Shown here one piece after another: positions 34,323-53,519 of a stretch of 64,000 nt of DNA. The stretch's first letter is position 1; every line of letters begins with the position of its first letter. The notes under the pieces were generated by a model. The model ran no database searches. It had not been told where the DNA came from and was given only the letters and a program-made list of their open reading frames with translations. This DNA is from Cloacibacillus evryensis DSM 19522 (GTDB taxonomy: Bacteria; Synergistota; Synergistia; Synergistales; Synergistaceae), in the NCBI RefSeq assembly GCF_000585335.1, contig NZ_KK073872.1, positions 2,285,283 through 2,349,282 of the forward strand. The letters run 5' to 3'. A program made the position numbers and the translations under genes.

Positions 34323-34501
34323 TATTTTTAACACCCTGAAGCAGGCCCCCTCAGCTAACCTCTCATTTACGCCTCCCGGCATTTCACAAAGCCTATCATA
34401 TAACGCCGCAGCCTCCGCGGGCAAGAGCCAATGCCGCTCCTCCGTCCCCGAGTACGCCGCGGATTGATTCCGAAATACAGGTAAGCGCGGGCATGGGCGG
34501 T

Positions 34502-34536
34502 TTGTTGTACTTTTGTTGCACTCTCCATGTTATTAT
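34502..34536 (+). promoter_or_regulatory. Promoter box copy A: two TTGTTG-type repeats and -10
   Basis: Direct repeats TTGTTGTACTT (34502) and TTGTTGCACTC (34513) at an 11-bp period are followed, 18 bases from the second repeat's start, by TATTAT (34531-34536). No -35 hexamer lies at the usual place. The box is 36 bases before the start codon of the M6-like gene. Spacing is identical in the three other copies. Confidence 0.8.
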
Positions 34537-34572
34537 CATTTTTATAATTTCATATATGGGAGAAATCATGTG

Positions 34573-35681
34573 ATGTCTCATTGTGAGAAACGTGTTTTTA
34601 AAGCGATGATAGGATTTGGCGTCCTGTTAACGCTCTTCATCCTGCTCTCTTCAGCGGCGGCGTCCTTTGCCGCTCCGCTAAACCCAAACAAGGTCATTAC
34701 GCTGAGACAGCCGGACGGAAGTTCTTTTTATCCCGAGAACGAGGGGAAACACCCTGATGAAAAGATAAAAATAGACGGCTCCGAAGAGCATATGAAAAAC
34801 GAGGCCATATTCGTGCCCCGCGTCCTCGAGGCGACCGGCAGGAAATACGGCATAGACTTCTCCGACTACGCCAAAGACGGGAAGATAACGCAGAATGAGC
34901 TCGCCGTCTATCTGATCCTCGCGGGATATGAGGGAGACGACGGGCCTCAGCCGATCGGTCCACGCCCTACAATATGGGAATGGGTATGTTCTCGCTGATG
35001 TCCAACGGCTGCGGCGGCGCTAAAAAGGAAGAAACAGCCGGAACGCGCCCCGTCAATCTTGACGCGTGGAGCAGATATTATCTCGGTTGGGAGATGCCCA
35101 ACGCGGCGAAGGCCGATTCGCAGGCGAAGAGCCTTGATATTTACTGCCAGAATCACACGAAGGCCAGCGGCCCGATAAAGGTAAACGGCCCCGCGTCGCT
35201 TCCCTATCAGTATTACCTCATGGAGGTGCGCGACGCCACGGATACGGGCGCCTGGGACGCGGGCCTGCAGACCTTTATGGGAACCGCCGGCACAAATGGC
35301 GTATTGATGCTGCATGTCGACGAGACGATCGGCGCGGGCAGTCTGGAAGAGGACAACGATTTCAACCAGCACGGCGTCTCCGAGGAATCAAAAGATAAGG
35401 TACTCCATCCCCACCAGGGCGCGATGCCCGTTTATCCCTACGCCGATTCCCGGCTCAAGGGCGACGATCTCGGCAAGCAGGAGTCGCTGTGGTACGCGGG
35501 CAACAATCTCGCCAAGGCAAAGGGAATATCCCATTCGTCAGCAGTGGGATTTCTCAAGAGCTTTTTCTTCTCAAATCACGATGCCGCTAAAGGCGACACG
35601 GAGACAGGAACAGACTCAGCACTGTCAACGATGACCGTCGCCGGCATAGACGCCGGCTGCCGTCACTCTAGTCTATCTTGA
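34573..35681 (+). pseudogene. M6-like exported metalloprotease, catalytic core deleted
   Basis: The first frame (34573-34998) gives a signal peptide (FGVLLTLFILLSSAAASFAA) and an M6-type N-terminus (NKVITLRQPDGSSFYPENEG, then FVPRVLEATGRKYGIDFSDY). The second frame (34974-35681) resumes at YNMGMGMFSLMSNGCGG and PVNLDAWSRYYLGWEMPNAA, the region that normally follows the zinc site. The HExxH segment expected between them is absent and the frames differ, so an internal deletion broke the gene near 34965. The C-terminus also lacks a sorting tail. The remains overlap the converging C69 gene by 14 bases. Confidence 0.8.
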
Positions 35682-37028
35682 ATATCCCGTCAGGGCTGTT
35701 CTTTATATGCTCCAGCAGCGCGGAGCGTATCTCACGGGCCCTCTCGGCCGCCTTTTCACGCGTGTCCAGCACATAGGCGGTGATATAGCACCTGGCCAGC
35801 GCCGGATCTTTCTTATAGAGCGCGAGCATTTTCGCTTCCACCTCCCGCTGTTCTTCCGAGAGCTTCAGTTCGTAGGCGCGCCAATAGTCCTGAACGGCTT
35901 TGCCGTACTTCGCGCGGTCATATCTGCAGTAATAGGCGACATTCTGAAACTGCCAATAGGAGCTGTCCGGCACATATTTATCGCTCACCGTCTTATCATA
36001 TTTACAGGTATCGGCAATGAGGCCGTAAAGCGGCAGATTGACAGAATGCTCCGACTGCGCCATCGCTATCCACATACGCGCGCCGATCTCAGGCGGAAGC
36101 TCCGGCAGCAGCTCGACGATATGCGTGTGCATCTGCGTGTTGAAGCCTATTGGCCGCAGCGTCTTCGTCCTGTCGGCGTCGCTTCCGCCAGCCGAAGACG
36201 CCGCCCCGTCGTAAAAAAGCGTCTCTTTAATGTCATAGCCCTCTGGATTAAGCGTAGTCACCCTGGGAGCCAGCGAGAGATCGTAGGAGGTTCCCTGATA
36301 GCGGTCACGCTGAAATTGCATCACAGCCTCCGCCGATATTTTCCTGTCCGGAGTTACAAACATAGGGTAGGTCTTGTCGCTGTCGCCATAGCCCAGCATG
36401 GCGATCTTTTTTGACGGCGCAAAGAGATTATAGCCGCGCCACCTGCGCCCCGTATTGTATTTAGTGTTATTCTCACCATAAGAGGCGGCGAGATTCACGT
36501 CCCCCGCGTGGACTCCCTCTTCGGCTCCGCCGTAAACGGCGAATCCGTGTTTGACGGCAAATTCTTTCAGATCAGCCGTGCCGCGAAAATTCGCCCTGTC
36601 GGAAAGGTCGGCGTAATCCGTCACCATGTCGTTCGCCACGATGATGAACTTATCGTCGGGAACCTTCGAGGCCAACCAGCGATGACGGCCAGGCCATACT
36701 CGTTCGTGCCAAAGGCGATGTGCACATCCTGCCAGTCAGGGGCCGGGGTCATCCTGGGCACGCCGGTGTGCTTATAACTGTCATGGCTCATAGTGTAAAA
36801 GTAATCGCTTTTGGTGCTCCTGAGTTTTTCGCCCTTCGCATATTTACCGGCAGGGTAGACTGCCAGCCTCTTTCCGGCGGAAGAAAAATGATCTTCCGTG
36901 CGGGCGAAAAGATAAGCGCCGGAGGCGGAAGCCCCCTTGCCGACGGCTATAGAGGAACAGGCCTCCGCCGCGGGAAAGAGAACAAACAAGCCGAGCGTCG
37001 CCAGCAGCAACAATTTTTTCATCTTCAT
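35668..37028 (-). pseudogene. C69-family dipeptidase, internal deletion
   Basis: Read leftwards, the first frame from ATG 37028 (site GGGAGG) gives a signal peptide (MKKLLLLATLGLFVLFPAAEA) directly followed by the catalytic cysteine (CSSIAVGKGASASGAYLFAR). It runs to HIAFGTNEYGLAV near 36665. There it shifts into another frame that begins WLASKVPDDKFIIVANDM and runs to 35668. In intact C69 peptidases about 100 residues lie between these parts, so an internal deletion with frameshift is likely. C69 enzymes cleave dipeptides and feed amino-acid fermenters. Confidence 0.8.
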
Positions 37029-37122
37029 AAAAACATCCTCCCTATTAAAAACATTACTATTCGCCCACGCTTCCGGAAGCTTGCGCTTCGTGTGACCATA
37101 CCGGATACTACCGCTGGTACGA

Positions 37123-37157
37123 ATTATACTATGGCAGGCACAACAAAAGTACAACAA
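37123..37157 (-). promoter_or_regulatory. Promoter box copy B
   Basis: Leftwards, repeats TTGTTGTACTT (from 37157) and TTGTTGTGCCT (from 37146) at an 11-bp period precede a perfect TATAAT (37128-37123), again 18 bases after the second repeat begins. The box is about 95 bases before the C69 dipeptidase start. Confidence 0.8.
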
Positions 37158-37270
37158 ACTTTGTCTTATATACCTTAGTAAATACATGAGCGGCGTAATT
37201 ATATAAAAATGCCGCTTTTAACATAGGAGTCGTTCTCTGCCTTGATCCGCCGGCCTTAAAATAAAAAATG

Positions 37271-37294
37271 CCCCGGCGAAGTCATCCGCCGGGG
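37271..37294 (-). terminator. Terminator of the NhaC gene
   Basis: Arms CCCCGGCG (37271-37278) and CGCCGGGG (37287-37294) with an 8-base loop are followed leftwards by CATTTTTTATTTT. Confidence 0.85.
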
Positions 37295-37323
37295 GCTGCG
37301 TTTCCGTCAGTGGGAACGCTGAA

Positions 37324-38793
37324 CTACTTCTTTTCGTATTTAGCCGCTTCGCTCTTAAGGTAGACCTGCGGCTCCGCGGGGAGCTTGAAGAGCGGGATGA
37401 AACGGTCCCAGCCGGTGAAGGTGAGGACGAGCATCGAGCCTACCGCTATCCAGGCGAGGTAGTTGTGCATGATGATATCGCCGACGGAGAGGGCTTCGGC
37501 GAGCGGATAGACGGAGACGCTGATGCCGATGAAGAATCCCATATAGCAGTGCCACGGCACGAGCTGCGAACCGAGAACGCCCATCGCGTCCGAGAGCGTC
37601 GCGTTCCTTAGAGCCAGCGTGTACATGTCTTCCTTTGAACCGACGACGTTCTCTTCCGTTATGTTCTTGATGATCGGGCCGATAGTGACGATCTGGGCCA
37701 TCTCGTCGGAAAGCGCCGCGTTGCCGATCAGGCAAAGAATGCCGTTGGCGAAGATAAGGTGGCGCACTTTGCTAACCAGGCGGGTGATGAGCAGCGCTAT
37801 CGGGTCAAAGGCGTTCATGAGCCTCATTACGCCTCCAAAGGCGCCGACCCAGAGCATCATCGCGATCGACCAGCCGCCGGCGTCCGAGAAACCGGTGTAG
37901 ACGAGATCGAGGAATTCGGTGACGCTTGTCACCGTTCCGGCCGCGAAGCCGAATACGAGCGAGGAAATTATCCCGGAGCCCAGGCAGATCAGCGTGCTGT
38001 AGCCCTTGACAGCCGTGGCGAGAACGATAATAAGAGGGATGACCATGTAGTAAGGCACGCCCTGCTTAACGAGCTCAAGCAGCGTGACGGCCGAGGGGCG
38101 CTCTTCGGCGAGCGCGGCCCATACCTCCTTGGGGATCTGCGCGATGGCGTCGGCGGCCTGTCCGCTGGTGCTGGGCAGTCCGAGGGCTACGCCGATAAAG
38201 TAAAAGACGACGGCCGAAGTTACGAGGCAGAGCAGCGACCAGACTCCCTGATGGCGGACTCTCCTGATTATCTCGACCTGCTGGATGCCGGAGCTGACGA
38301 TCGTCGTATCGGAGATAAGACCTATGTTGTCTCCGAAGCAGGAACCGCCCGCGATGGCGCCTACGGTAAGCGCGATATTTCCGCCGACGATGTGGTTAAG
38401 CCAAAGGAAGATCGGCGCGCAGGCCGCGAACGTTCCCCAAGAGGTCCCCGTCGCGATGGACAGGACGGAGGTGACCAAAAGGGCGACGACGGCGAGCACC
38501 TTCGCGTTGAGACCGGCGGCGAGAGACATATTGATGACGGCGGCGGCGACGCCGGTGGCCATAAAGCATTCTGCGACGGCGTAAGCAGCCTGAAGAATAA
38601 GGAAAACTATCAAAAAGTGTTTCAGATTATCAAGGGCCGCGTCAAGACAGTCCTGGAACTTATAGCGGTCTACGATCATCGCGATGATGACAGAGTACAT
38701 GAACGAAAGCGGCGCGGCCAGAAGGATATCCATGCCCGAGAGCATGAGACCCGCTATAACACATATAGGCGTAAGTTTCAACAAAGCTTTCAT
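37324..38793 (-). CDS. Na+/H+ antiporter, NhaC family
   Basis: The protein of about 489 residues is an integral membrane protein with about twelve hydrophobic segments. It shows SVLSIATGTSWGTFAACAPIF and GAIAGGSCFGDNIGLISDTTI, the conserved NhaC half-repeats. It exchanges Na+ for H+, or in relatives carries organic acids with Na+. The start MKALLKLTPICVIAG lies after AAAAGGAGG. It is the nearest gene downstream of the SDR/GcvP/NAD-kinase-like operon but is separated by 308 bases, so it may be co-regulated rather than co-transcribed. Confidence 0.88.
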   Translation of the reverse strand: MKALLKLTPICVIAGLMLSGMDILLAAPLSFMYSVIIAMIVDRYKFQDCLDAALDNLKHFLIVFLILQAAYAVAECFMATGVAAAVINMSLAAGLNAKVLAVVALLVTSVLSIATGTSWGTFAACAPIFLWLNHIVGGNIALTVGAIAGGSCFGDNIGLISDTTIVSSGIQQVEIIRRVRHQGVWSLLCLVTSAVVFYFIGVALGLPSTSGQAADAIAQIPKEVWAALAEERPSAVTLLELVKQGVPYYMVIPLIIVLATAVKGYSTLICLGSGIISSLVFGFAAGTVTSVTEFLDLVYTGFSDAGGWSIAMMLWVGAFGGVMRLMNAFDPIALLITRLVSKVRHLIFANGILCLIGNAALSDEMAQIVTIGPIIKNITEENVVGSKEDMYTLALRNATLSDAMGVLGSQLVPWHCYMGFFIGISVSVYPLAEALSVGDIIMHNYLAWIAVGSMLVLTFTGWDRFIPLFKLPAEPQVYLKSEAAKYEKK

Positions 38794-39043
38794 TACCGAT
38801 AAATGCCTCCTTTTCAACTATGCCTGTTTCAACAGACAAAATCGGAACCTGAGAGAACCCTCGATACGGCCCTTTGAAAACCGCACGCACCGGCCCTCCC
38901 ATCCTCGGAACGCGTGGGAACGCTTTGTATTATCTCCGCTGGCATACCTCCTTTTGAATTGCAGGCAGAGTACAAATAACAAAAAAGCCCTCGCCTTTAA
39001 TTGGTATAGTGTAGAAATTTATAACAAATTACTTATCCGATAA

Positions 39044-39093
39044 ATGATGGCATTTTAGCATGGTGAAATATATTAATACTAAAATGCCATCAT
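39044..39093. repeat. Perfect 15-bp inverted repeat between NhaC and SDR genes
   Basis: ATGATGGCATTTTAG (39044-39058) and CTAAAATGCCATCAT (39079-39093) are perfect inverted copies with a 20-base AT-rich loop. No T-run follows on either side. It ends 9 bases before the stop of the SDR gene. The rest of 38794-39101 holds no gene. It may be an operator, an mRNA processing or stabilising stem, or a factor-dependent terminator. Confidence 0.6.
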
Positions 39094-39101
39094 GTTATGA
39101 C

Positions 39102-39854
39102 TTAATACAGCCCTGCCGTTTCGCCGCCGTCTATTCGGATGTCGGCTCCGGTGATGTATTTCGCGTCGTCGGAGGCGAGGAAGGCGTAAAGCTTGCCGAC
39201 CTCTTCCGGTTCGGCGTGGCGCTTCATCGGGATGCCCTCGTTTACTTTGGCGAGCATCTCTTCAGTGTACTCGGCTTTCTGCATGGGAGTGAGGACATAG
39301 CCGGGGCATACGCAGTTCACTCGAACGATCGGAGCGAGTTCGAGAGCCATGCTCTTGGTCAGCAGGATGACTCCGGCCTTGGACGCGTTGTAATCAGTGT
39401 ACCAGCGGTGCCCCTCCGTGCCGTTGGTAGAGGCGGTCATCAGGATGACGCCGCTCTTCTGCTCCATCATGCGGCGCGCGGCTTCGCGCGCGCAGAGGAA
39501 CATGCCGTTGAGGTTGATATCGATGACTTTTTTCCACTGCTCATAAGAGATGTCCACGAAGTCGGCCCTGATGCTGATGCCGGCGTTCGAGATAAGGACG
39601 TCGATACCGCCGAGCTCCGCGTCCATTTTTTTGAAGGCGCTCTGCACATCTTCCTCTTTGCTGACGTCGCCGACATAAAATCCGGCAAAAGCCGGATTTT
39701 CGGCCATCGTCTGCTCGGCCGCCCTCTGATTATAGTCTACGACAAATACCTTGGCTCCCTGCCGCGCGAATACCTGGGCGGTGGCCAGGCCGATGCCGCT
39801 TGCCGCTCCCGTGATCATAACTCTTTTTTCCGTAAGTTCTTCATAACGTGCCAT
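39102..39854 (-). CDS. Short-chain dehydrogenase/reductase (last gene of GcvP operon)
   Basis: The 250-residue SDR shows the cofactor loop TGAASGIGLA (residues about 15-24), the NAG motif (LISNAGISI) and the catalytic YNASKAG. It probably uses NAD(P)H to reduce a keto group or oxidise an alcohol; the substrate is not evident. It ends the leftward operon with GcvPA and GcvPB. A second SDR (43982) starts the operon and is a distinct paralogue. Confidence 0.88.
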   Translation of the reverse strand: MARYEELTEKRVMITGAASGIGLATAQVFARQGAKVFVVDYNQRAAEQTMAENPAFAGFYVGDVSKEEDVQSAFKKMDAELGGIDVLISNAGISIRADFVDISYEQWKKVIDINLNGMFLCAREAARRMMEQKSGVILMTASTNGTEGHRWYTDYNASKAGVILLTKSMALELAPIVRVNCVCPGYVLTPMQKAEYTEEMLAKVNEGIPMKRHAEPEEVGKLYAFLASDDAKYITGADIRIDGGETAGLY

Positions 39855-39882
39855 AATGTCACTCTCCCGTCACTTAAAATTT

Positions 39883-40998
39883 CTATGAGACTTTAGCCAT
39901 CATTTTCCGCGCGTGTCCCGTGATAACGGGAAGATAGCCCCTCAGCTCCTCGTCGAGCGAGCTGTCGCCGGTATCGGCGATCAGGCTCTTGCCAAAGAGC
40001 TGCGCCATCTTCGCCGGGGTCGCGATGACCATGATGTTTTCTCTGGGGATCATGCGGATCACTTCGGGGCTAAGCTGCTGGTTTCCGCGGCCGAAGATAT
40101 GCCCCTGTCCGCCGATCACGGTGATGATGAGCGACCGGCGGCTGCTCTCCACGGAGGAGAGCAGTTCTTTGATCCCGGCTTCCGTCAGGTCTTTGCCGGC
40201 CAGTTTGCCGTTCATTACGGCGTCCACGCCGAGCAGGGTACCGTCGAGTCCGAGCCGGTCCGTAAGCTGTTTGGTGGTGGAACCCGAACCGATGAGGTAG
40301 AGCGTATCGGGCTTCATGGAGAGTGCGGCGAAGGCGGCCAGGTTCGCCGCTTCCTCCGCGGACCCGCCGCTGCCGCCCGATTTGCGGTCCTGCATGAACT
40401 CACGGTCGTCCGGTATCCTCATGTAGCCATAGAGTCGGGCGCGCACGACATTGTCGCGGAAGGCCTCTTCGTCTATATCTACGACCTCCGCCGCCGCGAA
40501 GCGCTTAACCCTGCCGAGCAGCAGTTTATTGACGAGCATCCCGGCGTCCCTGGGCCTCTTCGCATATACGCCGGAATGTATCTTGACTCCTGCCGGTATG
40601 CCTATGACCGGGATACTCTCGCCGATCACGGAGCATATGTCGCGCGCCGTGCCGTCGCCTCCCGCGAATACGACAAGGCCGACACCCAGCGCCAGCATCA
40701 TTTCCGCTGCGCGCTTTGTGTCGGCCGGAGTCGTCCTTTCGGATGGGTCAAACAAAAGCTCCGTCTCTATACCGCAGGATCTCAGCAGGTCGGCTCCCAT
40801 GGCGCCGGAGGGGCTGTAGAAACGGCAGCCTCCCGCGCTCGCGGCAAATTCTTTTACGGCTTCCCCTGCCCGCACGCCGGCCATCGGCACGGCGCCGAGC
40901 TCAAGGGCCCGGCGAAGAGTGTCCTCTCCGTCGGTTCCCTTAAGGGCCACCCTGCCCCCCATTCCTGCTACGGGATTGATGAGGAAGCCTATTTTCAT
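39883..40998 (-). CDS. ATP-NAD kinase-like protein (AcoX group)
   Basis: The 371-residue protein shows GFLINPVAGMGGRVALKGTD at the start and the diacylglycerol/NAD-kinase motif VFAGGDGTARDICSVIGE. The C-terminal part contains TKQLTDRLGLDGTLLGVDAV and GGQGHIFGRGNQQLSPEVI. It belongs to the long NAD-kinase-like group often found in catabolic operons (AcoX). It may make NADP+ for the SDRs, but the true substrate is unproven. It begins 3 bases after gcvPB. Confidence 0.85.
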   Translation of the reverse strand: MKIGFLINPVAGMGGRVALKGTDGEDTLRRALELGAVPMAGVRAGEAVKEFAASAGGCRFYSPSGAMGADLLRSCGIETELLFDPSERTTPADTKRAAEMMLALGVGLVVFAGGDGTARDICSVIGESIPVIGIPAGVKIHSGVYAKRPRDAGMLVNKLLLGRVKRFAAAEVVDIDEEAFRDNVVRARLYGYMRIPDDREFMQDRKSGGSGGSAEEAANLAAFAALSMKPDTLYLIGSGSTTKQLTDRLGLDGTLLGVDAVMNGKLAGKDLTEAGIKELLSSVESSRRSLIITVIGGQGHIFGRGNQQLSPEVIRMIPRENIMVIATPAKMAQLFGKSLIADTGDSSLDEELRGYLPVITGHARKMMAKVS

Positions 40999-41001
40999 GG
41001 C

Positions 41002-42567: not shown

Positions 42568-42581
42568 TGAAACGGCCTCCT

Positions 42582-43967: not shown

Positions 43968-43981
43968 CTGGATCTCTCCTC

Positions 43982-44764: not shown

Positions 44765-44821
44765 GTTTGTCTCTCCTTTATTTAAGTATTTATGATGTGA
44801 AACGTCATTGCAAGTATCCAC

Positions 44822-44829
44822 TGTATACA
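44822..44829. promoter_or_regulatory. Candidate GntR operator TGTATACA
   Basis: A perfect TGTATACA palindrome lies just downstream of the operon promoter's start site, followed at 11 bases by a related GGATAC half-site (44813-44818 on the reverse strand). Such AT-rich GTATAC cores are typical of FadR/FCD-type GntR operators. The GntR gene at 47868 is the obvious candidate. This is inference from position and pattern. Confidence 0.45.
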
Positions 44830-44844
44830 CTATTTCTTAGATAC

Positions 44845-44873
44845 TTTATATATTATCCGGGCCGGATTGTCAA
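44845..44873 (-). promoter_or_regulatory. Sigma-70 promoter of the SDR/GcvP operon
   Basis: Leftwards, TTGACA (complement of 44868-44873), a 17-base spacer and TATAAA (complement of 44845-44850) lie about 75 bases before the SDR start. Confidence 0.7.
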
Positions 44874-44984
44874 TACTCTTTCGGAACAAAATGAGAGGAA
44901 TATTTTTTCTCTTCCAAGCGGTCAGTCAGACGGTTTTCCGTTTTCACGCCGCCCGAAAAATATTGATACCATAGAGAATTGAAG

Positions 44985-45009
44985 AGGCCTCCCGATCGAC
45001 GGGAGGCCT
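44985..45009. terminator. Hairpin between GcvP operon and surface-protein gene
   Basis: Arms AGGCCTCCCG (44985-44994) and CGGGAGGCCT (45000-45009) with a 5-base loop form a very strong stem. There is no clear T-run on either strand. It lies between the leftward surface gene's 3' end and the GcvP operon promoter, so it probably ends the former. The remaining 44874-45090 region holds no gene. Confidence 0.55.
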
Positions 45010-45090
45010 TCTGACTGAGCGGCCTTATTTACCGCGCGCGGCCGCGCGTTTGCGGTTATTTCGTTATCGCGCCTTGCCGTGATCTTCGCG

Positions 45091-47239
45091 TTACCTCTTT
45101 CTTCTTGCCGCGGCCGGCAGTACCGCTATCGCAAGCAGCGCCAGCGCGCCGAAGCCGGCGCTGCAGCCGCCGGAGCCGCCTATCGTCTTCGTCACACTGT
45201 TGCTGTCCATGTTGGTCTCGCCGATCACTTCGCCGATCACGAGCTTCAGGTCGCCGGTGTAGTTCTTGGCCAGATCGCCCGCCAGCTCAACGCCGACCGT
45301 CTCGCCGGGCAGCACGCCGGGCAGCCTTTGGACGTCAACGACGTTTCCGTCCTTGTCAACGAGCGAGACTAGCACGTTCAGAGCGGCTTCCGTTCCCTTG
45401 TGCGTTATCTCGGTCGCGGCCTTGACGCCGTCCTGGTCCAGCGTGTAGGTGAAATCGTTGTCGGTGTCGCAGAGGTCTACTTCGCCTATGCCGAAGAACC
45501 ATGGATCGTCCGCCGATGTGTCGCCGGCAACCTCGGCGTCAAGCTCGCCCGCCGCTATCAGCGCGGAGGCCTGCTTCGGCTCCTTGGGCGCCGCGATGCA
45601 GACGTCATACCAGCCCTCGTTGTTGTCGCACGCCTCGCCGATCCCGTGGTACGGCAGCTCGTCTATGCTCTTGTCCGGGTTCACCGTTACGAATACGCGG
45701 TAGTGCCCGTCCGGCACCGCCGTTACGTCCCAGGAGACCGCGGCTAGCTTGTTGTTGTAATCCGTGAGGTTATCCGTGTTCCAGACGGGGATCTGGTCGA
45801 TCGTCGTCTCCGCTATCTGCGTTCTGCTGCCCACGAGCTTGCCCAGTTCCTTCTTCGTAGAAGTTGCCGGCCGCCATGTCCAGCGCGCCGATCTGCCTGA
45901 ACTTCCACCAGTTGTCCCAGAAACCGTATAGAAGCTGCTGCTTGGAGAAGCTCGTCGTTTTGTACGAATAGGCGGCCGCAGCCAGCATGTGGCTGCCGTA
46001 CCCGTATCCGTTCGGCTCCGTGTAGGTCAGGACGATGTCGGCCCTTCCGTCGCAGTCGATATCGGCAAGCACGCCTTTGCAAAGGTGAATTTCCGTGATG
46101 CCCTGTTTGAATGCGAGATCAAAGCGTCCGTGTGGTCCATCTCGGTGAGCTTGGCGCCCTCGTATGTGTAGAGGCGCCAGTGCAGGCCCCACTTGCCGCT
46201 GTTGTAGGAGTCCTTGTCCCTCGCGTAGCCCGCTACGAGAAGCTGCTCGCGCCCTTCGCCCTTAACGTCCCCAAAGGAGACGCCGATGCGCTTTTTCGTG
46301 TTGGCGGTATCGTGATAGGCGAGCTCCGTCTTGATCTCGGCGGCCTGCGCAAAGTGGTTGTCGGAGACCTTATAGAGCCTCAGGCGGTAGTAGCCATCGG
46401 TGTTTTCGTCGCTGAGGAATGCCAGCTCCTGTATGCCGTCGCCGTCCACGTCTCCCGCCGCGCACTCGACGACGAGCTTGTCAAGCTCCCTCGCCGCCGC
46501 GAATTCAAAATGCGAGTAGAACTCCATGCCGGAGGCCGATTTCAGCGTGCCGGAGGCGTCGGCCTGCACCTGCATGTCGGGGAGGCGCGAGATGTGAAGG
46601 TAAAGCTTGTCCGAGACCTTCGAGACGCTTGCCGCGACGATGTCCCTCGTGTCGCTGGTCGTCCAGCGGCCGGAGTAGAGGCCGATCGCGCGCGGGGAGT
46701 TAGCGTGGTCCGCCAGCTTATAGTTAAGCTTCCTACTGCCCGCCGTGCTCATGTCGTTCACAGCGAGCTTGTCCGCCTTGTAGGCGAAAAGGCGGATATT
46801 GCCTTCGACGGGGACCGGCCTGGAGCATGTACGAAGTTTCGTCGCCGCGCAGGCGCAGCGTGCCGTACGTTGAGTAGAAGCCATTCGCGTCGTCAAGTCC
46901 GCCGTCGAGGCAGAGCTTGTTGTACTCGCCGTTGTAATATGAAACCTTCTTGTCTCCCGTCACAGAGGCGTCGGGGCTGATTGCGGAGACATACGCAGCG
47001 TGCTTTTCTCCATATCTTCCGTCTGTGCCGGTGTTTGTCGCGCGCACCATGATTAGGTCGTCGCCCTTGAGCAGCGTCTTGCCGCTCGCAAACGGATCCG
47101 TCTCGCCCGGGCGTTTGCCGCCCGTCTCTATAGCGGCCGCTATCTGCGGCCCGACGTAGACGCCAGCCGCCAAGAGCAGCAGCGCCGCCGCGGCCAGAAG
47201 CCGCACGCGTTTTCCGGTAAATCTGCCGAAATACTTCAT
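45091..47239 (-). pseudogene. FG-GAP-type exported surface protein with Synergist-CTERM tail, frameshifted
   Basis: From ATG 47239 (site AGGAGGAGATAAGG) the protein has a signal segment (RVRLLAAAALLLLAAGVYVG), then FG-GAP/VCBS-like repeats (GDVDGDGIQELAFLSDENTDG, ADIDCDGRADIVLTYTE). It has a CARDB-like domain (VWNTDNLTDYNNKLAAVSWD) and the tail GGSGGCSAGFGALALLAIAV ending RRKR. The reading frame changes three times: near 46815 (TSYMLQ to VPVEGNIRLFAY), near 46118 (MDHTD to FDLAFKQGITEIH) and near 45855 (AAGNFY to KKELGKLVGSRT). Every segment on both sides is clearly coding, so the gene was intact recently. It would have been a surface-bound protein of about 710 residues. Confidence 0.82.
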
Positions 47240-47352
47240 CCTTATCTCCTCCTTAATCTCGACCGGCCCGCACCTTTACGGCCGGATATCCTCCGCTCCA
47301 TGATGCCCTCGCAGAGAACGGTAAACAATGTGACTCAATCGCTTTGTCTTCC

Positions 47353-47387
47353 ACTATATCAAACGAGGTACAACAAAGGTACAACAA
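47353..47387 (-). promoter_or_regulatory. Promoter box copy C
   Basis: Leftwards, TTGTTGTACCT (from 47387) and TTGTTGTACCT (from 47376) are identical 11-bp repeats. TATAGT (47358-47353) follows 18 bases from the second repeat's start. It is 114 bases before the FG-GAP surface-protein start. Confidence 0.82.
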
Positions 47388-47415
47388 ATCAGGGGGCGAA
47401 AAGGGGGCGGGGAAA

Positions 47416-47741
47416 GATAAATAGCGATTTATATTTTTAAGCCTCCCTCGCCGAGGGAGGTGGGCCGGCGCGCGGTTTTTGCGCCGGGTCGGAAGGAGTG
47501 TTGTACTGTTTGGCGCGGTTTTCCGCGCTAAACAGTGCCCGCGGCGCAAGCCGCGGAAAAGGCGGAAGAAGATAAGATCAAGATCAAAACACAAAACCCA
47601 AGGTCAAGCCTCCTCCAGTCTCGGCGGAAAAACACCACCGAGCCAGCCCCCTCCGGCGAGGGGGCCTTTAAAAGCATAAACCGAAATCGCTGAATATCGA
47701 CAATTTGCGTTTTGTGAGTGCCCGCTAAATCGCTGTTTACC
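47416..47741. repeat. Inverted-repeat-bounded intergenic element
   Basis: GATAAATAGCGATTTA (47416-47431) and TAAATCGCTGTTTACC (47726-47741) are inverted with 14 of 16 matches. Inside are several strong GC-rich hairpins (for example CCTCCCTCGCCGAGGGAGG at about 47441-47459 and CCCGCGGC/GCCGCGG at about 47539). No gene is seen. The same terminal sequence and the phrase GGGGAA-GATAAA-GCGATTTAT recur at 62.6-62.84 kb. It resembles a MITE or similar dispersed repeat. Confidence 0.55.
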
Positions 47742-47867
47742 GTCCTGCCGTAAAAAATAACCTGCCGTCAATTCACCGTCACCGCGGGTTTTCTTATTTT
47801 CCGCTTGCAAATCGGCCGCGTACTATGTATATTTTTATCTGAAGGCAAATTGGGGAGCTGATTGAAT

Positions 47868-48518
47868 ATGGTTATGACTACATCATCCGTGCAGACCGCG
47901 GCCGGGTTCGTGTATGATCAGTTGAGAAGGAAGATTTTTGAAAAAACGCTGGTCAGCGGACAGCGTCTGCCGGAGGTGGCGATCGCCAAGGAGCTGCAGG
48001 TGAGCCGCACTCCCGTGCGCGAAGCCTTGAGACGCCTTGAGAACGAGGGGCTGGTCCAGATAATCCCGGGCTGGGGCGCCTGTCTCGCCTCTCCGACCAG
48101 GCAGGAGATAATAGATACATACGAAGTGCGCGAGGAGCTTGAGGTCATGGCGATACGCAAGGCGGCGAAGCAGATCACGCCGCTGCAGATATGCCGACTG
48201 CAGGAACAGATCGACGCGGAACACGAGACCTTTGTAAAGCGCAATCTTGAATCCTACCTCACGGTCAATGACAATTTCCATATAATCATCGCCGAATCCT
48301 CCGGCAACAATACATTGGTCGGCTATATCAAAAACATTCTCTCGCGGACATTCGTACAGATGATCTTCTTCGAGTCTTTTTTCGATTTCAACACGAACCC
48401 GAGCCTCGAAGAGCATATCATCATTCTCGACGCGCTGAAGAGGCACGATGAAGAGGAATGCATACGCCTGATCAGGGAGCATCTGAGACTCTCGATGGAG
48501 GGGCTCAAGACAAGATAA
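47868..48518 (+). CDS. GntR family transcriptional regulator (FadR/FCD type)
   Basis: The protein of about 216 residues has an N-terminal winged helix (YDQLRRKIFEKTLVSGQRLPEVAIAKELQVSRTPVREALRRLENEG). The C-terminal FCD-type effector domain contains EVREELEVMAIRKAA, NDNFHIIIAESSGN and a final helix with REHLRLSM. Such regulators bind small carboxylates or amino-acid products. The ATG at 47868 follows GGGGAGCTGATTGAAT; a TTG at 47862 is also possible. It may control the SDR/GcvP operon 3 kb away. Confidence 0.9.
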   Translation: MVMTTSSVQTAAGFVYDQLRRKIFEKTLVSGQRLPEVAIAKELQVSRTPVREALRRLENEGLVQIIPGWGACLASPTRQEIIDTYEVREELEVMAIRKAAKQITPLQICRLQEQIDAEHETFVKRNLESYLTVNDNFHIIIAESSGNNTLVGYIKNILSRTFVQMIFFESFFDFNTNPSLEEHIIILDALKRHDEEECIRLIREHLRLSMEGLKTR

Positions 48519-48567
48519 GGCACGGGCGCGCCGCAATGGCGCGCCTTACTCTTCTGCGCCGCCGGCC

Positions 48568-49941
48568 TTACGCGCTCCGCGGCACGCCGAGCCTCCTGGA
48601 ACAGATCCGCCTGAGCAGCAGCGCGCTCACCAGCGTCGATATTATCTCGGAGATCACAAACGCCCACCAGACATCTTTAAGCGGGAACATCACGGAGAAT
48701 GCCCACAGCAGCGGCAGCAGGACGACGACGACCCGCAGCAGCGTCACGGCGAGGCTGTAAACGCCGTTGCCGAGCGCCTGATAGACGCCCTGAGCGATCA
48801 GCATGTAGGCCGTGAAAATGTAACTGACGCTGATAATGCGCATCGCGCGGCCCCCCATCGACAGCAGCTCCGGCGAGGCGTCGAAGAGCCGCAGTATCGG
48901 CAGCGCGAAAAGCTGCACCGCAAACATCCCCGCGAGCATGATCGCCGCGGCGTAGAGCATGCCATATTTTATCGTCTCCCTTATGCGCGGTTCATTCCGC
49001 GCTCCATAGTTGAAGGCCGCGATGGCGATCACGGCGTTGTTGAGGCCAAAAGCCGGCATGAAGACGAAATTTTGTACCTTTATGTAGATTCCGAAGGCGG
49101 CGACCGCCGTGGAGGAGAGGCCGATGAGGATTAGATTCACGCCAAAGGCCATCAGAGAATTCAGCGACTGCATGACGATCGCGGGCGCGCCTATCGCGTA
49201 TATCTTCCTTATCATGGAGAGGCTCGGCCGGAAGCCGCGCAGGTCAAAGGAGATCTCTTTATTCATCCGCAGGTTGAAGTAGACGGCGAGCGCGAGCGCC
49301 GTTATCTGCCCGATGACCGTCGCCGCCGCGGCCCCCTTCACGCCGAAGGCCGGCGCGCCGCAGAGGCCGAAGATCAGGATCGGGTCAAGCACGATGTTGA
49401 GCAGTGCCCCGACAAGCTGCGACGCCATTGAGAGCGCCGTGCGTCCGGTGGACTGTAAAAGGCGCTGAAAGGTTATCTGCCCGACGCCGCCGAAAGACCA
49501 GATCATACATACTGAGAGATAATCTACGCCATAACGGTAAATCTCCGCGTCATCGGTCTGCGAAGCGTAATAGCTCCCGGCGCAGAAGAGGCCGAAGAGC
49601 AAAAACAGCACGTATGTGAGTACGGCGAGAAATATCCCGTTCACCGCCGCCGCGTTTACTCCGCGCCGGTCGCCCTCGCCGAGCAGCCTCGAAAGTATCG
49701 CGCCCACGCCGACGCCCGTCCCCACCGTTATCGAGACGACTAGCAGCTGCACGGGAAAAGCCAGCGACAGCGCCGTGATCGCGTTCTCGCCGATGCGCGA
49801 AATAAAGAGGCTGTCCACAACGTTATAGAGCGCCTCCATCACCATCGAAAGCATCAGCGGCAGCGACATCGTGAAGAGCAGCCTCCTCACGGGAACCGCC
49901 GCCATCTTGTTTCTTTCCTGAACCTCATCTCTGTTTTTCAT
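48568..49941 (-). CDS. MATE family efflux pump
   Basis: The protein of about 457 residues has twelve membrane helices in two halves. It shows LFTMSLPLMLSMVMEALYNVVDSLFISRIGENAITALSLAFP and, in the second half, IGAPAIVMQSLNSLMAFGVNLI. It belongs to the Na+/H+-driven MATE exporters of cationic compounds; the substrate is unknown. The start MKNRDEVQERNKM follows AGAGGTG. It converges with the GntR gene. Confidence 0.92.
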   Translation of the reverse strand: MKNRDEVQERNKMAAVPVRRLLFTMSLPLMLSMVMEALYNVVDSLFISRIGENAITALSLAFPVQLLVVSITVGTGVGVGAILSRLLGEGDRRGVNAAAVNGIFLAVLTYVLFLLFGLFCAGSYYASQTDDAEIYRYGVDYLSVCMIWSFGGVGQITFQRLLQSTGRTALSMASQLVGALLNIVLDPILIFGLCGAPAFGVKGAAAATVIGQITALALAVYFNLRMNKEISFDLRGFRPSLSMIRKIYAIGAPAIVMQSLNSLMAFGVNLILIGLSSTAVAAFGIYIKVQNFVFMPAFGLNNAVIAIAAFNYGARNEPRIRETIKYGMLYAAAIMLAGMFAVQLFALPILRLFDASPELLSMGGRAMRIISVSYIFTAYMLIAQGVYQALGNGVYSLAVTLLRVVVVLLPLLWAFSVMFPLKDVWWAFVISEIISTLVSALLLRRICSRRLGVPRSA

Positions 49942-50066
49942 AACACTTATCACCTCTGAAAAAATAGCGCCGCGCCGACGGCAAAAAAAACGAGCCGCGC
50001 CGACGCTTCCAACCGGAATTACGTGACAGGCACAACTCGTTGTATCTTTTGATCCTTTATTCTGTT

Positions 50067-50381
50067 TTAAACATTATCCTTGAGATAACCCTCGATGAAC
50101 GACTCGACCTCTTCTTCCTTTATCTCCAGCGCCGCCGCCAGCTCCGCGTGGAGCAGGCGCTTCGCCCTTTTGCCGTACTCGCTCTCAAGGGTCCCCGTGA
50201 TCTTTCCCGAATCTTCCTCCCTGCGGAGCCAGCAGGATTTCACCACCTTCAGCCATTGCAGCGGTTCCTTTTTGCCGACGGCCCTCTTATAGAGGTCTAT
50301 CCTGGCTTTGCCGCTCGGCGCGCTGAACGTTGTGACATAGGGTATCCGCTCTATAAGTTCCAATGCCTCTTCTTTCGTCAT
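50067..50381 (-). CDS. Stand-alone CarD C-terminal-like protein
   Basis: The 104-residue protein starts MTKEEALELIERIPYVTTFS behind GGAAGGAGGG. Its content (IDLYKRAVGKKEPLQWLKVVKSCWLRREED, then EYGKRAKRLLHAELAAALEIKEEEVESFI) corresponds to the helical DNA-binding half of CarD/CdnL-type proteins, without the RNA-polymerase-interacting half. The start lies inside the 3' end of the CarD gene, with a 95-base overlap. Function is inferred from similarity of layout only. Confidence 0.6.
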   Translation of the reverse strand: MTKEEALELIERIPYVTTFSAPSGKARIDLYKRAVGKKEPLQWLKVVKSCWLRREEDSGKITGTLESEYGKRAKRLLHAELAAALEIKEEEVESFIEGYLKDNV

Positions 50382-50925
50382 CGCGGCCCTCCTTCCTTTT
50401 AGTTATATAGTCGACGATATATGGGATCACGCCCTCCCTGCGCAGGCCGAGGACGAAGGCAAACTCCTCCGTGACGGCCCGCTCGGCGAGCGCCAGCATC
50501 TTTTCATCGCAGGCGCGGAACTTTTTGTTGCTCTCGCGCATCTCTATCTTATGAAGGTGCAGTATCTTGACGAGCCATAGCACCTCTGCGATATTGCCTC
50601 CCTTGAGTATTTCGCCGAAGGCGGCCGTGCGGCTCTCGTCGTTATCTATCCACTGCCCCTCGATATCCTCAGTCTCGTCGATGATCGCCCGGATATCACC
50701 GGCGGAGAGCAGCGGCCTGATACGTTTTTCGAGCCCCTCTATCGAGAGCGGAAGATAGAACTTCGCTCCGGCGTCATAAACGGAATTCATGACATAATAA
50801 AGTTTCTCGTCGAGCCCGCTGAACTTCTCGCGGCGGATGTCGCTTATCCGGCAGATGCCGTTGCCGGCGTACATAACGTAGTCGCCCACGCGGTATTCTT
50901 TTTTGCAAAATCTGCTGAGATCCAT
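50287..50925 (-). CDS. CarD/CdnL family transcription regulator
   Basis: The protein of up to 212 residues has the RNA-polymerase-interacting domain (EYRVGDYVMYAGNGICRISDIRREKF, residues 8-35, then YYVMNSVYDAGAKFYLPLS). The helical C-terminal domain contains AFGEILKGGNIAEVLWLVKILHLHKIEMRES and MLALAERAVTEEFAFVLGL. CarD stabilises open promoter complexes. The last 35 residues (after KRKEGRDDERRG) are read through the start of the next gene in another frame and are unlike the family. The natural stop may have been lost. Confidence 0.8.
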   Translation of the reverse strand: MDLSRFCKKEYRVGDYVMYAGNGICRISDIRREKFSGLDEKLYYVMNSVYDAGAKFYLPLSIEGLEKRIRPLLSAGDIRAIIDETEDIEGQWIDNDESRTAAFGEILKGGNIAEVLWLVKILHLHKIEMRESNKKFRACDEKMLALAERAVTEEFAFVLGLRREGVIPYIVDYITKRKEGRDDERRGIGTYRADTLCHNVQRAERQSQDRPL

Positions 50926-51163
50926 TTCCAGCCCCTCCCGACAGCTCTATGCGAACTTCTTCCTCTGATATAAAGTAACTATTTATATATAAAAACAATC
51001 TATACGTAAGCGCCATAGGTTAAAATAAAACGCGCCGCTCTCAGCAACCGGACTTACGCCACCACAGAGCCGCACGTTGTGCAATAAATTATAACAATTC
51101 GCGGGAGATTTTTCAAAGTATGTATTTTTACTTTTAAGTATACTATATTTAATACAAAAAAAA

Positions 51164-51204
51164 CGGCTCAGACGATTCGTTGTTTCTTTCAATCGTCAGA
51201 GCCG
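51164..51204. terminator. Bidirectional-looking terminator
   Basis: CGGCTCAGACGATT (51164-51177) and AATCGTCAGAGCCG (51191-51204) form a 14-bp stem with one A-A mismatch. Poly-A stands before it and CTCTTATTT follows, so it can end the peptidase fragment gene leftwards. The surrounding 51017-51258 region holds no gene. Confidence 0.7.
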
Positions 51205-51258
51205 CTCTTATTTATCCATAGCGTCTATGCGGATGCCGGGTTGTGATGTGCGCGAATA

Positions 51259-51492
51259 TCAGTCCTGAAAGATGAACCTTCCGCCGTATCCATAATAGTC
51301 GAGCCAGTATATGCCTTTGAAGAAGGCCACGAGGAACGCCTTTTCGTGCATGCTCGTCCCGACGCCGGCGGTATAGCCGTCAAATGACTCCGTTTCGATT
51401 TTGTTGGAGCCGGCCGACTTAAAGGCCGCCTCAGCCTCATTCATGTTGCCGATCGGCACAAGGTCGTCGCTTACGTGGAGGTACAACAAACT
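51259..51492 (-). pseudogene. C-terminal fragment of an alpha/beta hydrolase or S9-like peptidase
   Basis: Read leftwards, LLYLHVSDDLVPIGNMNEAEAAFKSAGSNK resembles the segment around the catalytic Asp of alpha/beta hydrolases. It continues to TSMHEKAFLVAFFKGIYWLDYYGYGG, where the catalytic His would lie, and stops at 51259. The N-terminal two thirds, including the nucleophile, are absent; upstream codons to 51546 look unrelated. It is a truncated remnant. Confidence 0.55.
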
Positions 51493-51554
51493 CTTCCATG
51501 CGGCAGAAAATAGTTTTTTAAAAGAGACATAACTCCCCCTTGACATTATAACAA

Positions 51555-51571
51555 ATAACTATTATAGTTAT
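51555..51571. promoter_or_regulatory. 7-3-7 palindrome upstream of the Fur-family gene
   Basis: ATAACTA (51555-51561) and TAGTTAT (51565-51571) flank TTA. AT-rich palindromes of this size upstream of Fur-family genes commonly bind the regulator itself (Fur, Zur or PerR). It is 37 bases before the start codon. Confidence 0.5.
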
Positions 51572-51607
51572 CTAAACATTAAATTTACTATTGATCAACT
51601 AGGGTGA

Positions 51608-52093
51608 ATGACAATGGAGCAGCAAAAATTTGAGGAATTTCAGGCGATTTGCCGGCGGAACGGTTGGAAATGCACGTCACAGCGGCTCGCCGTTTATGAG
51701 TTTGTACATGAAAACTATACTCATCCCGGCGTTGACGATGTATGGCGGCATGTCAGACAAAGCTTGCCGGCCGTGACAAGGGAGAGCGTTTACCGGATAC
51801 TGAACGAACTCGCTGGGCGGGGGGTCATCCAAAAGCTGAACCATCTCGACAGCGCGCGTTATGACTGTCAGACCGGGCCGCAGGGACATTTTATATGTGA
51901 GATCTGCGGCGAGATAACAGATTTCGCCTTCCCTGAAGGGGCGCTCGCCCCCGCAGATCCTCCTTGCGGCGAAGTGCGCCATATCGAACTCAGGCTCAGC
52001 GGCGTCTGCGGAAAATGCAGACAGGCCATGACCGAAGGGAAGCCGGGGAAGGAAAAACAAGTGCGCATACGGGCGCGAAAAACCCGTAAATAA
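51608..52093 (+). CDS. Fur family metal/peroxide regulator
   Basis: The 161-residue protein has a winged helix (ICRRNGWKCTSQRLAVYEFVHEN, then RESVYRILNELAGRGVIQKL). The dimerisation domain carries GHFICEICGEITDF (C97, C100) and GVCGKCRQ (C134, C137), the structural zinc site. The tail after residue 145 is unusually basic. Whether it senses Fe, Zn or peroxide cannot be told. The QueD-like gene follows by 24 bases, which would suit a Zur- or PerR-like role. Confidence 0.85.
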   Translation: MTMEQQKFEEFQAICRRNGWKCTSQRLAVYEFVHENYTHPGVDDVWRHVRQSLPAVTRESVYRILNELAGRGVIQKLNHLDSARYDCQTGPQGHFICEICGEITDFAFPEGALAPADPPCGEVRHIELRLSGVCGKCRQAMTEGKPGKEKQVRIRARKTRK

Positions 52094-52117
52094 CATAGAT
52101 AAAAGGGAGAAATTACC

Positions 52118-52684
52118 ATGAAAAGTATTACAAAACTTGACCTGCAGTATGCACACCGTTTTTACGGATTCAAGGGCGAAGCGCAGTACCTTCACGGACA
52201 TACGGGCATTCTGACTATCGAGGTGGAAGATTCCGTCAACCCCGGCGTGAATATGGTTTTTCCCTGCAATGAGATCCAGAAAACCGCCTGGGACGTTCTG
52301 AAAAATTTTGACCACGCCTTGATCCTGCGGGAAGACGATCCCCTGCTGCCCGCCGTCCTGGACGTTTACGAGAAGCAGGGCATCAGGAACGGCGCGCCGA
52401 GCAATACCATGAAGGGGCCGGCCTTCAAGACAGAACTGGCGACCGCTTATCCGGAGTGCCGCCTCGTCGTCACGAAGGAGACTATGACGGTCGAAGGAAT
52501 GATCAAGATCGTTTACGACCTGCTGAAGGATAAGCTGAACATCGTCAAGCTGACCTTCACCAGCGGCGTCAACGCCGCCTCGGAAGAATACGTGCCGAAG
52601 CGCAGCATGGACCGCTGCCCGCTCTGCGGCATCGCAATGGATGAAAACGGCGTATGCCCCAAGTGCGGGTACAGGAAGGCTTAG
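52118..52684 (+). CDS. QueD/PTPS-like protein lacking the catalytic Cys, with C-terminal zinc ribbon
   Basis: The 188-residue protein has the pterin-synthase zinc ligands H13 (QYAHRF) and H26/H28 (LHGHTG) and the catalytic Asp-His pair in DHALIL (65-66). Where QueD has its catalytic Cys (C-x3-HGH) it has A22, with E21 next to it. The C-terminus adds a zinc ribbon (RCPLCGIAMDENGVCPKCG, C167/C170/C180/C183). It may be a PTPS-III-like or a QueD2-like paralogue with altered chemistry. It follows the Fur-family gene and appears co-transcribed. Confidence 0.8.
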   Translation: MKSITKLDLQYAHRFYGFKGEAQYLHGHTGILTIEVEDSVNPGVNMVFPCNEIQKTAWDVLKNFDHALILREDDPLLPAVLDVYEKQGIRNGAPSNTMKGPAFKTELATAYPECRLVVTKETMTVEGMIKIVYDLLKDKLNIVKLTFTSGVNAASEEYVPKRSMDRCPLCGIAMDENGVCPKCGYRKA

Positions 52685-52835
52685 CATCCTCCCGTGGCCG
52701 TTTCCGTTAAACAAATTTGAAATAAAGGGGCAGGCCTCATTCGGGCCTGCCCTTTTGCCGCCGTTATACAGGCCGCGGAGCGGCCCTCGTATATCTCATC
52801 TCACTATTATGACCTTGATCGTGTGCCGCGCAGCT

Positions 52836-53374
52836 TCAGCCGCGTTTTCTGAGCCGCGCGCAGATAAGCGGCAGCGCAAGCAGGAGCACGCCGGCCCCCG
52901 CGCCGATACCGCTGCAGCCGGATGATGAATCAGCCTTCGTCTTGGGAACGGAGAGGACGAGGACGTAATATTCGTTAGAAACACACAGAAGATGTTTCTC
53001 TTTCGGGAGCGCCACCTTTATCACGTCACCTTCCAGAGTGTAGGCGCAGTCGGCGGCCACCAGTTCCAGCGGCATTTCGTCCTCGTCGCTGAAATAGAGG
53101 TTCAGAGTCGCTCCGGCCCTTTTAAACGCGCCGAGGCGGTTTATTTGCTCTTCCGTCAGAGGGACGGCAAGCTTTATATCAATCGAGACCACATCAAACT
53201 CGCGGTCGTCGTCTCCGAAGAGGATAAAGTCCAGCAGCGAACATACCTCCACCTCTCCCAGCGGGGCGCAGAGTTTATCGTTGAACTTTCTGTACCATTC
53301 GGCCTCCTCCGCGGTGTACCCTTCAATGAGAGCGTCGGTACTGCCGCCGCCAGCACAAGAAATTTTTTCAACAT
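52836..53374 (-). pseudogene. Exported protein with Synergist-CTERM tail, frameshift in signal peptide
   Basis: ATG 53374 begins MLKKFLVLAAA, a truncated signal peptide, but the frame then runs out of phase. One phase over, the coding sequence continues STDALIEGYTAEEAEWYRKF and on to LCAPLGEVEVCSLLDFILFGDDDREFDVVS. It ends SSSGCSGIGAG, a hydrophobic helix and RLRKRG (the sorting tail). A small deletion near 53340 removed part of the signal and shifted the frame. The mature part (about 160 residues) is unrecognised. Confidence 0.78.
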
Positions 53375-53425
53375 GCCAAGGCCCCCTCTTTTTCAGTCAT
53401 GCAGTGGGTTATTCATATGGATCTC

Positions 53426-53460
53426 ATCTTAACAGGCAAGGTACAACAAAGGTACAACAA
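53426..53460 (-). promoter_or_regulatory. Promoter box copy D
   Basis: Leftwards, TTGTTGTACCT (from 53460) and TTGTTGTACCT (from 53449) repeat at an 11-bp period. TAAGAT (53431-53426) follows 18 bases after the second repeat begins. It is 52 bases before the exported protein's start codon. Confidence 0.8.
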
Positions 53461-53519
53461 AAAGGGCCGGAAACGGCAAATCCGTCCGGCCCTTTTATAT
53501 TTTTTCGATTTTACACGGT

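Follow-up and report, generated by a model that had tools for sequence, protein, structure and literature searches.

Activators of the Streptomyces antibiotic regulatory protein (SARP) family are known as antibiotic activators of actinomycetes, and proteins that join a receiver to a SARP domain exist as an architecture (COG3947). Response regulators of the OmpR/PhoB type bind DNA through a winged helix of roughly 100 residues and nothing more. SARP promoters contain direct repeats spaced 11 or 22 bp, the 3' repeat lying 8 bp from the -10 element, and the afs box consists of two 11-bp repeats bound by a side-by-side dimer, with the upstream repeat overlapping the -35 (PMC10936776, available part). 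By the Pfam rule a standard SARP combines PF00486 and PF03704 (PMC10663231, available part). LytTR sites, the targets of another regulator type, are 9-bp repeats about 12 bp apart, placed upstream of the -35 (PMC6193735, available part). Here we analyse a stretch of 64,000 nucleotides from Cloacibacillus evryensis DSM 19522 (hereafter the window; contig NZ_KK073872.1, positions 2,285,283 to 2,349,282), in which a 22-bp box of two direct repeats, followed by a -10 hexamer, stands in four places. With a probability of about 0.85, we read this box as the operator of a SARP-like activator that has a LytR-like receiver and a LytS-type kinase. The SARP-like domain would then be the output of a two-component system in anaerobes unrelated to the actinomycetes. 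No paper in the literature searched names such a box or joins SARPs with Synergistetes, and for the search by motif letters this holds among the matches listed, where one title, on Leptospira lexA, was the sole one to concern a bacterial promoter.

The box and its -10 element

The box reads TTTGTTGTACY followed by TTTGTTGTACC, two direct 11-bp repeats, and at all four window sites its end lies 8 bp from the -10 hexamer. A fifth copy was found elsewhere in the window's own genome (G000; 3,488,464 bases in one contig; other genomes carry G-labels and loci L-labels).

34501..34522, forward strand: box 1, repeats TTTGTTGTACT TTTGTTGCACT
34531..34536, forward strand: -10 of box 1, TATTAT, 8 bp after the box
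37137..37158, reverse strand: box 2, repeats TTTGTTGTACT TTTGTTGTGCC
37123..37128, reverse strand: -10 of box 2, TATAAT, 8 bp after the box
47367..47388, reverse strand: box 3, repeats TTTGTTGTACC TTTGTTGTACC
47353..47358, reverse strand: -10 of box 3, TATAGT, 8 bp after the box
53440..53461, reverse strand: box 4, repeats TTTGTTGTACC TTTGTTGTACC
53426..53431, reverse strand: -10 of box 4, TAAGAT, 8 bp after the box
G000:C1:222479-222500, reverse strand: fifth box, with TATAAT at 8 bp, before an intact gene for a 564-residue ArnT/PMT-like glycosyltransferase

An initial annotation of the window had reported the four sites, and its coordinates and strands were correct on re-check. It had also recognised direct repeats with an 11-bp period, but wrote the unit one base short at the 5' end; its -10, beginning 18 bases after the second TTGTTG at each site, is the same position as 8 bp after the box. 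The -35 that it found missing is indeed missing, as TTGACA is matched at no more than 2/6 positions at spacings of 15-18 bp, and TGTACY gives 3/6 at 19 bp.

Four box matches with up to three mismatches lie in the window, against 0.00 expected from 100 shuffles, and the whole genome contains five pattern matches and none to the reversed pattern. A 40-nt profile built from 19 Synergistota sites recovers the same five at E-values of 4.2e-9 to 5.7e-8, which are flattered by the presence of these sites in the training set; the next candidate has an E-value of 0.39 (150 of 754 first-look candidates scored). G000 therefore has a small set of promoters of this kind, five in all, with four inside 19 kb.

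We surveyed 185 Synergistota genomes, 52 of which form the window's family group. With up to three mismatches and no -10 required, the box occurs in five genomes, all belonging to that group: G000, G134 (same genus), G162, G163 and G165. TA...T stands exactly 8 bp downstream in 17 of the 20 matches, the exceptions being two overlapping matches in G162 and one in G163. A second pattern that demanded TA...T added two sites, both in G165. Searches of genome and phylum, as proposed in the initial annotation, yielded five sites in G000 and an accepted set of 19 in four genomes (G000, G134, G163 and G165).

These 19 sites align without gaps; the second TTTGTTG is invariant and the first shows one change. 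The bases that follow the heptamer differ between genomes. They are TAC in G000 and at most G163 sites, except that sites 1 and 2 of G000 have CAC and TGC in their second repeats and two G163 sites have TAA then TAC; G165 has TAA/TAG. At each of the three G134 sites GAC stands in both repeats, as two protomers of one altered regulator would impose.

A triple repeat in G162, TTTGCTGTACC TTTGCTGTACT TTTGTCGTACT, which accounts for two of the 20 matches, was excluded, having TTAAAT at the place of the -10 and a genome with no match to the regulator described below; at L042:6088-6120 this genome has three tandem 11-bp TTTG(C/T)(T/C)GTAC units with no good -10. L020 (G163:C20), also without a -10, was left out as well. 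Single matches outside the family in the second-pattern search (G060 and G108) look like chance, the reversed control giving two (G154 and G169); in the first phylum search the reversed control also gave two (G092 and G093).

Regulator and kinase

One G165 box precedes a response-regulator gene (L051:277-1107). Searched with its product, 23 of the 185 genomes match at 1e-8, and the best matches, in G165 (self), G134, G163 and G000, are all at 1e-56 or better, followed by the next at 3.6e-45. The top four are exactly the four genomes with clean boxes, and G162 has no match. The conserved winged-helix response regulator that the initial annotation had suggested looking for was thereby found, and it ranks with the genomes that carry the box.

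In G000 (regulator gene at G000:C1:403234-404040, L076:9235-10041), G134 and G163 the regulator gene lies directly behind a kinase gene, and in G134, G163 and G165 a box stands before the kinase gene. His_kinase (PF06580) and HATPase_c domains of the LytS type are present in the kinases of G000, G134 and G163, that of G163 with an additional sub-threshold match to 7TMR-DISM. The boxed kinase of G165 breaks off at the end of contig C106, ahead of these domains, and shows 44% identity to its G163 counterpart over the sensor part of the latter. The receiver of the regulator scores best against the LytR and BtsR models.

The C-terminal half is predicted to be a winged helix (modelled by itself; predicted local distance difference test score, pLDDT, 93). 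Foldseek returned six matches to this model at E<=0.001, all of them AfsR or EmbR. Structural alignment with VIA-align gave Z-scores of 15.6 and 14.5 for EmbR and 14.7 and 14.3 for AfsR over 139-142 residues (model residues 1-147), against Z <=10.3 over about 92 residues (model residues 4-101) for PhoB, SaeR, GlnR and similar proteins. The best structural matches are thus OmpR-type winged helices of the AfsR/EmbR kind. The domain runs about 45 residues past the winged helix, in an extension that aligns with AfsR/EmbR, and so exceeds the bare winged helix of OmpR/PhoB regulators. Searches of PDB sequences with the whole regulator returned mainly receiver domains, and the LytTR domain of Pfam was unmatched in it. 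The site itself has the features of a SARP site, namely 11-bp direct repeats and 8 bp to the -10 in the 17 of 20 matches collected without regard to a -10. We make the SARP assignment because the site complies fully with the SARP spacing rule and because the AfsR/EmbR fold is that of the regulator tracking the box.

More distant receiver-SARP regulators occur at L077-L088, in G160, G169 and genomes of f6/g37. In four of them E takes the position of the phospho-aspartate, as judged by eye, and no kinase motif was seen alongside in 10 of the 12. Many of those in f6/g37 lie beside genes resembling precursors of ribosomally synthesised and post-translationally modified peptides (RiPPs), SPASM-type enzymes and peptidase-ABC transporters. 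Three of the 12 loci carry, on the strand of the regulator, a tandem repeat of 11-bp period followed 8 bp later by a -10 (2.7 kb upstream in L078, 114 nt upstream in L087 and 79 nt upstream in L088), and none was found at the other nine. In L087:5987-6022 and L088:5488-5523 the heptamer CGCAACA recurs at 11 bp, 8 bp before TATAAT, so that the architecture is that of the box and the letters differ; the orientation of these repeats is uncertain, and the reverse strand of L088 fits too.

Occurrence in Clostridia and specificity

A genome_contigs search outside the phylum, for the heptamers, their spacing and TA...T, gave at least 120 stretches, from which no taxonomic frequency is drawn; the counts in this section hold among the matches listed. 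About 70 of 80 titled loci are from Clostridia (Lachnospiraceae, Ruminococcus, Oscillospiraceae and others), and two are G165 contigs. The initial annotation had placed the regulon in "this lineage", a restriction that is not borne out, as box and regulator are present together in Clostridia too. We analysed L097-L215 (119 loci, 129 sites, 849 kb; L163 among them is from G165). TATAAT is the commonest -10 (41/129), and base 8, the base after the heptamer, is equal in both repeats at 124 of the 129 sites (GG 71, CC 35, TT 16, AA 2).

The regulator type (E below 1e-39) is encoded at 29 of the 119 loci, where about 0.7 genes would be expected in 849 kb, a figure taken from 106 domain matches in some 127 Mb of 50 such genomes (rounded sizes summed). 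In these 29 loci the median distance from box to regulator is 125 bp against 1,280 bp at random, and none of 2,000 shuffles came as close. The box lies within 600 bp of the regulator in 17 loci, against 9.8 expected (0.35% of shuffles reach 17), and in six the first gene to follow is that of the regulator, 15-133 nt past the -10.

The boxes of L097, L105, L113 and L151 stand before small genes that, by eye, resemble RiPP precursors with GG-type leaders. L115 and L128/L194 (G201 and G213) have TTTGTTGTAC-type boxes in genomes with no detectable SARP-like domain.

Co-variation between box and protein was followed in 35 regulators whose locus or genome also holds a box, grouped by base 8 into classes; the G000 regulator is T-class and that of G134 G-class. 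Base 8 (G, C or T) co-varies with the regulator, and eight of the top 15 columns (183, 187, 188, 190, 191, 194, 196 and 197) fall in the recognition helix. The z values of helix columns average 4.3, above the 2.1 of the remaining domain (p 0.002) and the 1.8 of the receiver (p 0.0005), and it is this contrast between columns that is informative. At residue 190, 17 of 22 G-class regulators have D (G134 has H), all eight of the C-class R or Q and three of five of the T-class H; residue 196 is L in 22/22 of the G-class and M or I in 5/5 of the T-class. The structure of AfsR places its base contacts in the recognition helix (PMC10936776, available part). The pairing of base 8 with recognition-helix residues is a testable specificity rule.

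Several observations speak against the box being the operator of this regulator, or lessen the support for it. Seven of the top 15 co-varying columns lie outside the helix (131, 248, 108, 256, 168, 115 and 41), and relatedness, which inflates all columns, is controlled solely by the contrast between them. Two pairs of regulators among the 29 loci are 96-97% identical, so these loci are not all independent. Nine of 50 box-bearing genomes, hand-picked from the 80 titled loci, lack the domain at E<=1e-10. In the family of G210, a Butyrivibrio record itself picked for its box, 97 of 250 genomes hold the DNA-binding domain at E<=1e-20 (receiver not required, some matches in longer proteins), and the contrast between five of seven box carriers and 92 of 243 others is weak. 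No box was found in front of the kinase-regulator operon of G000. Within the regulator, Pfam BTAD is unmatched and Trans_reg_C falls under the cut-off; the model aligns with EmbR and AfsR to chain residues 175 and 183, where the protein ends. We file it as SARP-like, not as a standard SARP, because the full BTAD is missing. By sequence alone the match is weak, with E 0.013 for EmbR, the best natural protein, and 0.24 for AfsR, and two designed proteins outscore both.

We nevertheless hold to a SARP-like activator acting on the box, on the grounds of what was observed of the box, its spacing, genome-wide count and conservation, its gene contexts, the fold family of the regulator, and the co-occurrence and proximity of the two. 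The regulator probably binds the box and activates the promoter, and is probably phosphorylated in response to a signal. A membrane histidine kinase of the LytS/YesM type would sense that signal and phosphorylate the response regulator, a LytR-like receiver with a SARP-like winged helix. Two protomers would then bind side by side on TTTGTTG-N4-TTTGTTG, whose heptamers are one helical turn apart, and, standing just upstream of the -10, would take over the role of a -35 in recruiting RNA polymerase, in the manner of AfsR at the afs box. Targets would be mostly exported or membrane proteins, among them Synergist-CTERM proteins, lipoproteins, a secreted lipase, C69 and M6-like peptidases and an ArnT/PMT-like glycosyltransferase; in the relatives, where the gene of the kinase or the regulator is itself boxed, positive feedback would result.

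A wider proposal, which we favour with some reserve, is that a portable module, [heptamer-N4]x2-N8-TATAAT, serves a large family of LytS-kinase/receiver-SARP systems in Synergistota and Clostridia. It would switch on surface proteins, lipoproteins, in places RiPP genes, and its own regulator, and base 8 and the recognition helix would change together, keeping parallel systems separate. With a likely operator identified, such regulons may become readable from genome sequence.

Target genes, rival explanations and known systems

At 17 of the 19 Synergistota sites the box is followed by a first long gene whose product, judged from N-termini and family matches, is exported or a membrane protein, as the initial annotation had anticipated in proposing a check for genes with export signals or Synergist-CTERM tails. 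Boxed genes encode Synergist-CTERM proteins in G134, G163 and G165, lipoproteins in G163 and G165, a secreted lipase in G163, an ArnT-like enzyme in G000, G134 and G163 and the histidine kinase in G134, G163 and G165. At the other two sites the box precedes the gene of the regulator in G165 (L051) and, in G163, one for a small protein resembling a Nif11 leader (L045; NCBIfam E 0.025, under the cut-off). In G134 and G163 about 480-530 bp separate the -10 from the start of the Synergist-CTERM gene, an interval with short frames that lack support. Behind the 129 boxes of L097-L215, 61 N-termini are signal-like or membrane (10 boxes have no open reading frame), a raw count from a crude hydrophobicity rule that carries no claim of export enrichment outside Synergistota. 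Two boxed lipoproteins, L046:5970-8111 of G163 and that of L049 in G165, are homologous and 51% identical; the former contains a BACON domain and matches the leukocidin/hemolysin family below threshold, and no Pfam family matched the latter.

In the window itself the boxed genes are of the following kinds.

34570..35681, forward strand: broken gene for an exported M6-type metalloprotease-like protein, behind box 1; overlapping frames 34513-34998 and 34974-35681
35668..37028, reverse strand: broken gene for an exported C69-family peptidase (PF03577), behind box 2
45091..47239, reverse strand: broken gene for an exported FG-GAP-like surface protein with a Synergist-CTERM tail, behind box 3; four overlapping frames
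52836..53374, reverse strand: broken gene for a small Synergist-CTERM-like protein, behind box 4
51259..51546, reverse strand: possible fifth relic, the remains of a secreted lipase at its C-terminal end, corresponding to residues 435-515 (of 521) in the boxed lipase of G163

The first frame of the M6-like gene is without a family match, and the second covers positions 195-271 of the 286 of the M6 domain model (TIGR03296, E 3.1e-5, under the cut-off). Two frames of the C69 gene fit PF03577 at positions 1-72 and 173-400 of 402, with about 100 residues lost and a change of frame; the C69 protein was sought in G134, G163, G165, G160 and G162, in a search that had no positive control, and gave no match. 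The tail of the FG-GAP-like protein matches TIGR04564 at 3e-8 and FG-GAP_3 is sub-threshold, as is the tail match of the small Synergist-CTERM-like protein. The gene behind box 4 is homologous to an intact boxed G165 protein (L050:5375-5998) only from residue 71 of the latter onward.

The initial annotation had each box pointing into the gene of an exported protein. The types are indeed exported, but none of the four genes is intact, each being broken by frameshift, deletion or both, and 34570-53374 is a cluster of decayed surface-protein and peptidase genes behind intact promoters. Generally poor sequence is an unlikely cause, because the unboxed neighbours in the window keep long open frames (one strain examined). 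The local regulon of G000 is largely decayed, with four of its five boxed genes broken. The activator-controlled regulon that had been proposed is supported as a small one, in which two 11-bp repeats replace the -35, and the window's own targets are remnants. The lipase remnant, whose full-length relative in G163 (L046:8331-9896) is boxed, may be a fifth relic; its single 12-nt half-box, TTTGTTGTACCT at 51490-51479, lies inside the reading frame and could be chance.

The initial annotation had attributed the box to an ordinary OmpR/PhoB-type response regulator. PhoB-type regulators also use 11-bp direct repeats that replace the -35, the winged helix is common to their domains and to the regulator found here, and L051 carries a gene for a standard OmpR-type regulator some 7 kb away from its G165 box. 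Yet the regulator that tracks the box is SARP-like across its whole DNA-binding part, its gene or that of its kinase is itself boxed, and no PhoB-type gene directly follows any of the 19 Synergistota boxes. We consider this attribution improbable: the OmpR-like fold was rightly foreseen, while the nearest family, by the 8-bp rule and the full-length match to AfsR/EmbR, is SARP. That the box might instead be a dispersed repeat or part of a mobile element is suggested by the crowding of four of the five genomic copies within 19 kb, before decayed genes. Such an origin is rejected because the flanks are unrelated; the spacing to the -10 is fixed, and in other genera, as in Clostridia, the genes that follow the module are different ones, which together leave this explanation with very little probability.

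A LytTR site would suit the PF06580 kinases of G000, G134 and G163 and a receiver that scores best against LytR and BtsR models, but the C-terminal half is a winged helix with the LytTR domain unmatched, and the period is 11 bp with no good -35, unlike the LytTR sites described above; we regard it as slightly less probable still than a dispersed repeat. The faintest of the rivals is a CodY-like regulator, regulons of this kind having been described in Cloacibacillus (PMC9318921, available part). The CodY-like consensus given there is an AT-rich palindrome (AATTTTC...), unlike the TTTGTTG direct repeats (PMC9318921, available part).

Among described systems, AfsR with its afs box and EmbR come closest to the SARP-like activator proposed here, sharing two 11-bp repeats, 8 bp to the -10, no usable -35 and the AfsR/EmbR fold. 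Unlike in SARPs, the domain follows a LytR-like receiver, is paired with a kinase and is missing the full BTAD; the hosts are Synergistota and mostly Clostridia, not actinomycetes, and the targets are mostly exported proteins and the system itself. With LytS/LytR systems it has in common kinases of the His_kinase PF06580 and HATPase_c type and a LytR/BtsR-like receiver, but its output is SARP-like instead of LytTR and its site architecture differs. PhoB/OmpR regulators and the pho box resemble it in the winged helix, the activator-type promoter and, as known for the pho box, the tandem 11-bp half-sites, whereas their fold matches it only in part (model residues 4-101, Z <=10.3).

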